Source: Candidatus Gastranaerophilales bacterium (lineage in GTDB: Bacteria; Cyanobacteriota; Vampirovibrionia; Gastranaerophilales; Gastranaerophilaceae). From it: a stretch of 64,000 bases of DNA. This document shows positions 1-18,814 of this stretch, one piece after another. A program made the position numbers and the translations under genes. Location: the NCBI GenBank assembly GCA_944326485.1, contig CALVED010000002.1:124001-188000 (forward strand). Direction: 5' to 3'. The first letter of the stretch is position 1. Every line of letters begins with the position of its first letter. The notes beneath the pieces are model-generated. The model saw only the letters and a list, made by a program, of their open reading frames with translations. It was not told where the DNA came from and made no database searches.

Positions 1-1853
1 CCAAGTTTGGGTAAGTCATTAATTGACAAAGTTATGTTAAACAAATCGAAAGAAATATTAAAAAATTCTGTTTTATCCTTTAAGCTTAGAATTATTCCAA
101 TATGTTTGTAGTTGTTATATACATTCACATAATTACCATTAGAATCTAATTTTTTCCATAGCTTTAAATTTGGATAAATATTAGTAGAATTTATTGTTGG
201 TGCCCCAAATATAGCCGGGAAATTAGTTGTTGGATAATAATCAGCAACAAGCCAGCGACCGGGGAATTCCTTTTGTATTTGACTTATGGCCATACCAAGC
301 GGTATTTTATATACGGTATCAAGTCCTATCATAACAGGATTAATAAGGCTGTAACATGTTATTGAACCAATTATTGCTATTGTAATTATGTAATTTTTTA
401 TTTTTCTATGATTCTCTACTGCATATAATATTAAGTATGAAAATATAAAAAGAAAAATTATAATTCCTATTATATATAATGTGACAATGAAAGAATTTGT
501 GTATTGAGGAATATTTTCTATTTGTATTTGTTTAAAAGAAAATAAATATATCCCAATTATAATGGTGTATAAACTTGAAATTAACAATTTATATTTTAGA
601 TTTATATTTATATTCTCTATAATGCTAAATAATCTTCCTAATAAAATAATATCAATAAAAGAACTTGCCATAACAGCACGACTTGATGATAAATACATTC
701 CTGTTATCTTCGCAAAAAGAGGAGTAAATCCAATTGTTAGATAAAAAATCAAAAATAATTGTACACAAATAAGTATAAGAATTAATTTGTCATTAAATTT
801 TGTCTTAATTAAATAAAAGATACTTATTATAAGTGGAAGAGGAAATAATCCTATAAAATAGGAAAGTTCACATATATTTATAAAATTAAATAATTCATAT
901 GGTAATAAATAATAAAAAAGTGTATTATCAAAATTGCCGCCCAAATTAAATCTTTGCCCGGGATATATTGTATTTCTTGTTATATTAATAGCTTCTAATG
1001 ATGGAATAATTAGTGATAAAATAATTATTAAGGCTGTAAATATTGAGATAACAGGGAAAATGATATCAATCTTCTTCCTATTTCTAATTTTCCAATTATC
1101 GATAATTATCCATATTCCGATAGCTGCAAAAATATATCCGAAAGGAACTTGCCAGGCCGGATAAAAGCATAAGACAAAACCTGCAATACATAAACCTAAT
1201 AAAATAGAAAAAATCAGTTTTAATTTATATTTATTAGTTTGCATAAAATAATATATTGAAATAATACCCAGTTCTCCCCAGAATATTTGTTCTACTAAAT
1301 CATTTATTGCAAACCACCATTGAATACCTGGTGAAAATACAGTCAGAACGCTGCCTGCTAGTGATAATAGTTTATTTCTTCTTGTAATAATTTGAAAAAA
1401 CTCAAAAGTTATCAGAAATAAAAAGATTGTTCTTCCGCACCAAAACCAAGACAAACCTCTTTCTTCATCCATTATAAAATATCCCCAATAAAATGGTTTA
1501 ACAATCGAGAAAAAAGCTTTTATCGGTTGATTATATGTTGTTGCCATATTTGTTGGAGCTGCTCGCCATATGGAATTTTCTATTTTATAGTTTTCATACT
1601 TTTGACATAATGCCATTGGAGTATGAACTGCCCATTCATCAGATCTGATTAATTGTGATACTCCAATAATCGGTTTTGAGAAAAAAGATTTATTACTGCC
1701 TGTTTGAATATAATTATTATACATTCCTATAGAGGAACCATGTATTTTTAAAAATACAAATAATATAAATATTATAAAACATATTAAAATACGATACTTA
1801 TATATAAAGTCTCCAATTTTGAAAAAATTATTTTTTATTTCTATTTGTTTCAT
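1..1853 (-). CDS. Large polytopic membrane protein, probable GT-C-like surface-glycan enzyme (partial)
   Basis: Reading the minus strand from an ATG at 1851-1853 gives an open frame of about 617 codons to the left edge; the C-terminus lies outside the window. The product has a short cytoplasmic N-terminus and a first membrane helix at about residues 21-36. An extracytoplasmic loop follows with a SFFSKP...RSDEW segment (R70 to W74) and SWFWCGR further on, then many hydrophobic helices. An acidic/aromatic first loop followed by about ten helices is what GT-C-type lipid-linked-sugar transferases and the related DUF7657-like proteins look like; the exact family is inferred. It overlaps the upstream glycosyltransferase remnant by 26 bp, so both were probably co-transcribed as a surface-polysaccharide operon. 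There is no strong ribosome binding site. Confidence 0.7.
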   Translation of the reverse strand, partial: MKQIEIKNNFFKIGDFIYKYRILICFIIFILFVFLKIHGSSIGMYNNYIQTGSNKSFFSKPIIGVSQLIRSDEWAVHTPMALCQKYENYKIENSIWRAAPTNMATTYNQPIKAFFSIVKPFYWGYFIMDEERGLSWFWCGRTIFLFLITFEFFQIITRRNKLLSLAGSVLTVFSPGIQWWFAINDLVEQIFWGELGIISIYYFMQTNKYKLKLIFSILLGLCIAGFVLCFYPAWQVPFGYIFAAIGIWIIIDNWKIRNRKKIDIIFPVISIFTALIIILSLIIPSLEAINITRNTIYPGQRFNLGGNFDNTLFYYLLPYELFNFINICELSYFIGLFPLPLIISIFYLIKTKFNDKLILILICVQLFLIFYLTIGFTPLFAKITGMYLSSSRAVMASSFIDIILLGRLFSIIENININLKYKLLISSLYTIIIGIYLFSFKQIQIENIPQYTNSFIVTLYIIGIIIFLFIFSYLILYAVENHRKIKNYIITIAIIGSITCYSLINPVMIGLDTVYKIPLGMAISQIQKEFPGRWLVADYYPTTNFPAIFGAPTINSTNIYPNLKLWKKLDSNGNYVNVYNNYKHIGIILSLKDKTEFFNISFDLFNITLSINDLPKL

Positions 1854-17457: not shown

Positions 17458-17676
17458 ATGGAACAAAATGAAAAACTTAAACAATTAGGGAAAAATATAG
17501 CAAAATACAGAAAAGCAAAGTTTTTATCTCAAAATGTACTTGCTGATAAACTAAATATTTCAAGAGAACATTTAGCTAAAATAGAAACAGCAAAAAGAGG
17601 GATAAGTATATCGCTTATTTTTAGAATATGTGATGAGCTTGAAATTTCTGAAAGAACTTTATTTGATTTTGAATAA
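17458..17676 (+). CDS. Small XRE-family HTH transcriptional regulator
   Basis: 72 aa, essentially a lone Cro/C1-type helix-turn-helix (LGKNIAKYRKAKFLSQNVLADKLNISREHLAKIETAKRGISISLIFRICDELEIS) with the recognition helix at about residues 34-48. There is no effector domain. No clear ribosome binding site precedes the ATG. It stands alone between repeat copy C and the tRNA-Pro repeat array, in the window's most accessory-looking stretch; stand-alone regulators of this size are common in mobile or plasmid-derived DNA. Target unknown. Confidence 0.8.
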   Translation: MEQNEKLKQLGKNIAKYRKAKFLSQNVLADKLNISREHLAKIETAKRGISISLIFRICDELEISERTLFDFE

Positions 17677-17890: not shown

Positions 17891-18315
17891 ATAATTTTCT
17901 TAGCAGAGCTTAGAAAATTACGAAACGTGGAACGGGCGAGCACGTGAGAATAAAAAAAGAAGGCTTAAAAAAGCCTCCTTTTAAATGGTCGGGATGACAC
18001 GATTCGCACAACAAACAAGGCGAAGAATGAGCCGTAGTTTGATGGGTCAGGTGAGATAATTTTCTTAGCAGAGCTTAGAAAATTACGAAACGTGGAACGG
18101 GCGAGCACGTGAGAATAAAAAAAGAAGGCTTAAAAAAGCCTCCTTTTAAATGGTCGGGATGACACGATTCGCACAACAAACAAGGCGAAGAATGAGCCGT
18201 AGTTTGATGGGTCAGGTGAGATAATTTTCTTAGCAGAGCTTAGAAAATTACGAAACGTGGAACGGGCGAGCACGTGAGAATAAAAAAAGAAGGCTTAAAA
18301 AAGCCTCCTTTTAAA
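17891..18315. repeat. 165-bp tandem repeat array containing tRNA-Pro 3' ends
   Basis: Units start at 17891, 18056 and 18221 (each ataattttcttagcagagct), an exact 165-bp period. Two units are complete and the third runs into the true tRNA-Pro. Every unit contains a hairpin (aattttct/agaaaatt), the minus-strand terminator (aggctt/aagcct with T run) and the 21 nt tggtcgggatgacacgattcg, which is the reverse complement of the last 21 nt of tRNA-Pro including CCA. In the two complete units the tRNA sequence stops there and continues as cacaacaaac. I saw no differences between units. Confidence 0.9.
18284..18314 (-). terminator. Terminator of tRNA-Pro
   Basis: Stem aggctt/aagcct with four-base loop; on the minus strand it is followed by seven T. 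Identical copies at -165 and -330 bp belong to the tandem array. Confidence 0.7.
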
Positions 18316-18392
18316 TGGTCGGGATGACACGATTCGAACGTGCGACCCCTTCGTCCCAAGCGAAGTGCGCTACCAAGCTGCGCTACATCCCG
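18316..18392 (-). tRNA. tRNA-Pro (anticodon TGG)
   Basis: On the minus strand: acceptor CGGGATG (starting 18392) pairs with CATCCCG; D arm GCGC...GCGC with AGCTTGGTA loop; anticodon stem CTTCG/CGAAG around loop CTTGGGA, anticodon TGG reading CCN proline codons; T arm GCACG-TTCGAAT-CGTGT; then A and an encoded CCA (18316-18318). All four stems are intact. The 3' 21 nt recur twice downstream in the tandem array. Confidence 0.97.
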
Positions 18393-18814
18393 ATATTTAT
18401 TTTTCAATTGGTGAAGCGCACTACGTGCTACCTCTCACAAAATGATATTTAATCATTTTGTTCTTGAATTTTGCTGTCTCTCGAACCTGTCGTTCCTTTC
18501 GCTATCGTTGTTGTCACTTCGGTTCTCACATACTTGGGTTTTACCCTTTTGCAAAATTCGCTCGGCAGAGTCAAGCTGCGCTACATCACAATTTGTATTT
18601 TATTTTCAAATACAGTCGCAAATTCAACTGCATTTAAACTTTATCAATAACATTCTTAAGAGTCAAGTCTAATTATAAAAATATTTATTATCTCTTAATT
18701 TATTTCATTATTATTTGTTTAAGAAAAATTCAAAATAACCAGAAACTGCCATACTAGATTAAAATAATGTTTTGTGTATAATATTTCTGTTAAAGCGTTT
18801 TTAAAGGATTTATT
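18393..18814. other. Region upstream of tRNA-Pro with tRNA-like fragments
   Basis: No credible gene. A 16-bp exact copy of the tRNA-Pro 5' part (caagctgcgctacatc) lies at 18572-18587, and gaagcgcactacgtgctacc near 18413 resembles the D-arm region. Between them is a GC-richer patch (about 18480-18545) loosely similar in style to the 40-bp repeat at 10236. The last 100 bp hold the trpS promoter region. Confidence 0.6.

Follow-up and report, generated by a model that had tools for sequence, protein, structure and literature searches.

When the end of a tRNA recurs beside its gene, the usual reading is an integration scar. The locus described here, in which the 3' end of a tRNA-Pro(TGG) gene recurs in tandem downstream of the gene in a Gastranaerophilales genome, raises the question of whether the array is such a scar or whether the end of an RNA gene has been copied in some other way. 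Within the window (the whole 64,000-nucleotide stretch of DNA that was analyzed), TRF identified positions 17891-18336 as a single tandem array with a period of 165, 2.7 copies, 100% matches and a score of 892. Direct script comparison resolved it into two full units and one partial unit in the order R116-S49-R116-S49-R116, in which a 116-nt repeat (R) is present three times and a 49-nt spacer (S) twice. All R copies are identical to each other, as are both S copies, in agreement with the exact 165-bp period and the identical units of the original prediction. The GC content of the array is 0.417, as compared to 0.285 for the window.

The intact gene, which encodes its CCA, lies on the minus strand at 18316-18392 (ARAGORN; Rfam tRNA model, 63.7 bits) and was the only match in an Rfam search of the locus. 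Read on the minus strand, R opens with exactly C56-A76 of this tRNA (21 nt, i.e., 18 tRNA bases from C56 plus CCA), which in R copy 1 (18221-18336) is the end of the intact gene itself and in R copy 2 (18056-18171) and R copy 3 (17891-18006) forms the first and second extra copies, at 18151-18171 and 17986-18006, respectively. The three tRNA ends that had been predicted are thus present, but only two of them are extra. In each R the tRNA end is followed by an intrinsic-terminator-like hairpin (18285-18312, repeated at 18120-18147 and 17955-17982), a remnant of the T-arm 5' strand that reads TCGCCCGTT where the tRNA has TCGCACGTT (18261-18269, repeated at 18096-18104 and 17931-17939), and a hairpin with a covarying stem, HP1 (GTAATTTTC..GAAAATTAT; 18221-18251, also 18056-18086 and 17891-17921). 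A second hairpin, HP2, with a covarying CATCAAACTACGGCTCATTCTTCGCCTTGTTTG core, sits within S (copy 1, 18172-18220; copy 2, 18007-18055). As proposed, there are accordingly three copies of the terminator hairpin, each on the minus strand, but the spacer does not accompany all of them: the array stops after HP1 of R copy 3, extending ∼95 nt (terminator to HP1) past its last tRNA end. In each unit, the T-arm of tRNA-Pro, together with the 3' strand of its acceptor stem, is split in the T-loop at 55^56 by an insert with two hairpins, and the terminator comes next. The T-arm remnant, which was overlooked at first reading, is also intact in the units of relatives. We regard it as very likely that the array consists of partial tRNA-Pro gene copies, each of them interrupted, that stand in tandem and have been homogenised.

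An XRE regulator gene was correctly noted to adjoin the array (17458-17676, plus strand; HTH_3 domain match). We found no support linking this orphan gene to the array and rejected it as a component. Small orphan XRE-like genes do occur downstream of tRNA-Pro in three genomes, at one locus each (the window gene, L136 8372-8635 and L173 15699-16022), two of the three loci having been judged by eye only.

The simplest account would be a plain recent tandem duplication, or an assembly error, without wider meaning. Units that are 100% identical are what a recent duplication would leave, and the source is a draft genome in which a third tRNA-Pro locus seems to be broken at contig ends: G000:C14:26800-27109 and G000:C9:1-240 bear 5' and 3' units that match tRNA-Pro(CGG), whose gene is absent from the assembly, so the assembly was probably broken there by the repeats. 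However, the array recurs in separately assembled relatives, as R-S-R at the same tRNA in the sister genome G024 and as three R copies in G033, with species-specific terminators in the units, and we therefore rejected an assembly error, which, in combination with invariant single-unit loci in all relatives, had been named as one of the findings that would undo the original prediction. Because these species-specific terminators are alike among the units of one locus, they point to local copying or homogenisation. With an insert family that is, in addition, common to different tRNAs and species, this account is very improbable. In the source genome itself, tRNA-Pro(GGG) also carries both the 5' and the 3' kind of unit.

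The 5' kind is represented in the window by a mirror element upstream of tRNA-Pro(TGG) (18432-18589), likewise missed at first reading, in which the 5' end of the tRNA is cut at the D-loop between G18 and G19 by another hairpin. On the minus strand, a copy of tRNA positions ∼1-18 with two mismatches (18572-18589) stops at G18 and is followed by an insert of the form ACTCTGCCGA..hairpin..GAGAG (18432-18571) and then by GTAGC and the leader. Nested in the insert is a purine-rich palindromic element (GCGAATTTTGC..GCAAAATTCAAG; 18463-18561) with copies in relatives. The same purine-rich element occurs in nested form (GCGAATTTTGC..GCAAAATTCAAGA and relatives) at L166 2900-3500 (G026:C1), L046 and L058, where no tRNA was found. 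Outside the 5' unit, also on the minus strand, is a promoter-like TTGACT-17-TAAAGT (18638-18666) that scores 9/12, a score that shuffled sequence reaches at a mean of 3.2 sites in the region. Because the same TTGACT..GATAAAG stretch precedes the 5' unit in relatives, this unit is probably transcribed with the tRNA.

The polarity seen in the window extends across the order. Among 159 distinct tRNA loci, copies of the 3' end were downstream of the gene in 61 cases and upstream in 2, while copies of the 5' end were upstream in 85 and downstream in none; the loci were drawn mainly from those returned by searches and over-represent repeat-bearing ones, so these counts are not estimates of genomic frequency. 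The positions of the breaks are similarly constrained. Most 5' copies (63 of 85) end exactly at G18, and the 3' break is sharp yet not uniform, with 22 of 61 copies beginning at C56 and 21 one base further (43 of 61 at position 56 or 57). A rule confined to the tRNA elbow is weakened by the initiator tRNA (fMet), whose 5' copy breaks at A9, and by others that break at about positions 10-15. No uninterrupted copy longer than 40 nt was present among the 159 loci. Where the contig leaves room for the distance to be counted, the 5' (D-type) units lie 69-321 nt upstream of the intact tRNA and copy its positions 1-18 nearly always exactly (Pro, Val, Thr, Ala); G24 and C25 are lost from them.

Interrupted copies were found for Pro, Val, Thr, Ala, Met, Phe, Asp, His and Leu tRNAs and for a 5S rRNA gene. 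The inserts are common to different tRNAs, whereas the tRNA part is always local, and in the loops that were read the insert ends are flush by appearance. Related hairpins interrupt copies of the initiator tRNA and tRNA-Phe, and the CTCTGCC/GAGAG hairpin, in reverse orientation, interrupts a partial 5S rRNA copy that lies with its terminator directly downstream of the 5S gene (L211, G026:C19:9300-10393, positions 1-400, minus strand; also L220, G012:C35). The CTCTGCC and AAACTACGG elements are found mainly in such loops of duplicated RNA-gene ends. Tandem expansion is also not peculiar to the window, as four 84-bp units precede tRNA-Val in G026 and three 3' (T-type) units follow tRNA-Met in G063, and in G032 a nearly complete second tRNA-Pro copy is interrupted in both the D-loop and the T-loop. 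At L210 (G026:C2:223300-225300; minus strand, 1000-1250), an initiator tRNA that breaks off in its anticodon loop, and that may be left over from an integration or rearrangement, has two D-type units in front of it. The pattern over the order is one in which the ends of RNA genes are locally duplicated outward, with a palindrome in one loop of the duplicate, while the copy on the inside remains an intact, working gene.

The inserts keep their pairing through compensatory change. In 19 sequences, the stem of the D-loop insert is 97.5% paired, with 6 pairs changed on both sides, and it contains 30 both-side-changed cells as compared to 7.7 after shuffling; its outer helix, CTGCC/GGTAG, recruits tRNA bases 19-22. 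For the T-type unit, RNAalifold folded 20 sequences into two hairpins enclosed by the T-stem, in which 11 pairs have both-side changes, and the HP2 core alone has 11 both-side-changed cells as compared to 2.0 after shuffling. Although the shuffle controls ignore relatedness, the slid controls do not, and for the D-loop insert the slid controls collapse.

Of 58 genomes searched with a covariance model of the D-type unit, each of the 35 that belong to the genus gave a match, as did 4 from two other families of the order, and the remainder gave none. A strict pattern for this unit, searched in 386 Cyanobacteriota genomes, was present in 27, every one a member of the same family as the source. T-type units were found in 24 of the 35 genus genomes and in 6 others of the order. 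Spacer-core matches in other genomes were nearly all in records named 'Candidatus Gastranaerophilales'. The HP2 hairpin AAACAAGGCGAAGCATGAGCCGTAGTTTG recurs once, between genes, on a contig of a Chitinophagaceae MAG of the Bacteroidota (DHEF01000045.1; L080 3860-3895), with no tRNA found near the match; an exact match of this length is unlikely to have arisen there by chance. A search of the open literature returned no report of tRNA-end repeat units in Gastranaerophilales, and the units appear to constitute an undescribed, order-wide repeat family.

Strong compensatory change is also what would be expected of a functional cis-acting RNA, i.e., a structured leader or trailer kept by selection that modulates folding or processing of the tRNA or releases a small RNA like rtT. 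The presence of D-type units in every genome of the genus and the promoter-like site outside the 5' unit are consistent with such a role. However, presence at a given tRNA varies by species, with G006, G011 and G018 having no 5' unit at tRNA-Pro(TGG), T-type units are missing from 11 of the 35 genus genomes, and some copies (L138, L140) are degraded. The palindromic element of the D-loop insert also occurs between genes with no tRNA found nearby. We consider a role of this kind doubtful as an explanation for the units.

The original prediction had suggested a string of att-like scars or a small satellite left in tandem, i.e., small elements or integrations stacked at an att core of C56-A76 by tyrosine recombinases, each restoring the tRNA end. 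Several observations agree with this. The repeated core covers the tRNA from the T-loop to its end, and integration at tRNA-Pro(TGG) in this lineage, which the prediction proposed to seek in relatives, does occur: immediately 3' of tRNA-Pro(TGG) there is an integrase gene in G022 of the same genus (L157, C27; 337 aa) and in G066 of the same order (L158, C21; 330 aa), where it is preceded by long ORFs of an apparent island. A distal att site was not found for either island on the contigs examined. However, the island-bearing G022 has no T-type unit matching the covariance model, and the only tyrosine recombinases in the source genome are two that are Xer-like by their size and by the presence of such a pair in nearly every relative. 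Nor is the repeat confined to a restored core, since the units retain the local terminator and the 5' strand of the T-arm, features that simple integration leaves unexplained. They have no ORF-bearing cargo, and their mirror counterparts break at the D-loop upstream of the gene and are found at a 5S rRNA gene. A satellite fares no better, given a structured, covarying insert that is common to different tRNAs, and 2.9 million viral contigs contained no match to either of the two element patterns searched. Unlike the usual picture of an integration scar, the breaks here are at fixed loop positions, on both sides of the genes and beside a 5S gene, with inserts conserved in their pairing, and recombinase scars are accordingly an improbable source of the array. 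Repeats of this type can nonetheless break assemblies and mimic att sites.

We thus favor, at a probability of roughly 60%, an origin in which an RNA-gene end is duplicated outward and a palindromic element enters the loop of the duplicate, with subsequent expansion and homogenisation. The ends of tRNA and 5S genes would be duplicated outward, the 5' end with its leader upstream and the 3' end with its terminator downstream. The palindromic element would enter RNA genes at loops and survive only where the gene end is duplicated, so that duplication would come before insertion or together with it. Recombination between identical units would then shift their number, leading to expansion and homogenisation, and the units may be transcribed with the tRNA and released as a by-product RNA like rtT. 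The Val duplication junction, at which an 8-nt word (CACATTGA) is shared, fits ordinary short-homology duplication. That no uninterrupted duplicate was seen suggests that duplication and insertion are coupled, though the survey is biased toward repeat loci; the two may be a single event, or the unit may not be an insertion at all but an RNA feature under selection. A frame (TGACTCTGCCGA..GAGAGGTAGC) that is strictly conserved, as well as the loss of G24 and C25 from D-type units, hints at selection on the whole unit. A more specific proposal, that the inserts are a class of short, mobile palindromes for which the loops of structured RNA genes are the point of entry, with the gene end duplicated outward and arrays building up on both sides, is speculative and rather unlikely. 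If it were true, G18^G19 and 55^56 being partners at the tRNA elbow, folded RNA or single-stranded DNA would be what is recognized, and the tyrT repeats of Escherichia coli would be a second, independent instance.

The array resembles those tyrT/rtT repeats in having tandem units downstream of a tRNA, each with the tRNA 3' end and each split in the T-loop by an insert. In our control analysis, the E. coli K-12 tyrT/tyrV locus has a period of exactly 178 and three extra tRNA-Tyr 3' ends (AATCCTTCCCCCACCACCA); its unit keeps the T-arm AAGGTTCGA, followed by a ∼65-nt insert and AATCC, and is thus also a copy split in the T-loop. The two differ in the tRNA, the phylum, the sequence of the insert and the exact break (∼57/58 in E. 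coli, 55^56 in the window), and the window units, unlike those of tyrT/rtT, contain an intrinsic terminator. The Rfam RtT covariance model (RF00391) had four matches in the tyrT/tyrV locus and none in three Gastranaerophilales loci (L001, L115 and L161), and upstream of tyrT/tyrV our survey found no 5'-end unit besides the second tRNA gene itself. As judged from their sequences, the two have the same architecture without sequence kinship.

The likeness to att sites of tyrosine integrases, a direct repeat of the tRNA 3' end that starts in the T-loop, with integrases at the tRNA in relatives, is offset by the lack of an integrase beyond the Xer-like pair, the lack of cargo, the mirror units at 5' ends and 5S, and the T-arm remnant. 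As a matter of general knowledge rather than of sequence comparison, the palindromic elements are also reminiscent of enterobacterial REP/BIME sequences and Rickettsia palindromic elements, being short palindromes found in many genomic places, nested and in part located in gene-derived sequence; in contrast to these, the CTCTGCC and AAACTACGG elements reside chiefly in the loops of duplicated RNA-gene ends. The window array is best classed, as a variant, with tRNA-end repeats of the tyrT kind. The E. coli tyrT/rtT repeats thereby gain an apparent distant counterpart with dozens of natural variants, in which testable questions can be put as to how an RNA gene takes insertions and yet stays intact and whether the interrupted copies have any role in tRNA transcripts.
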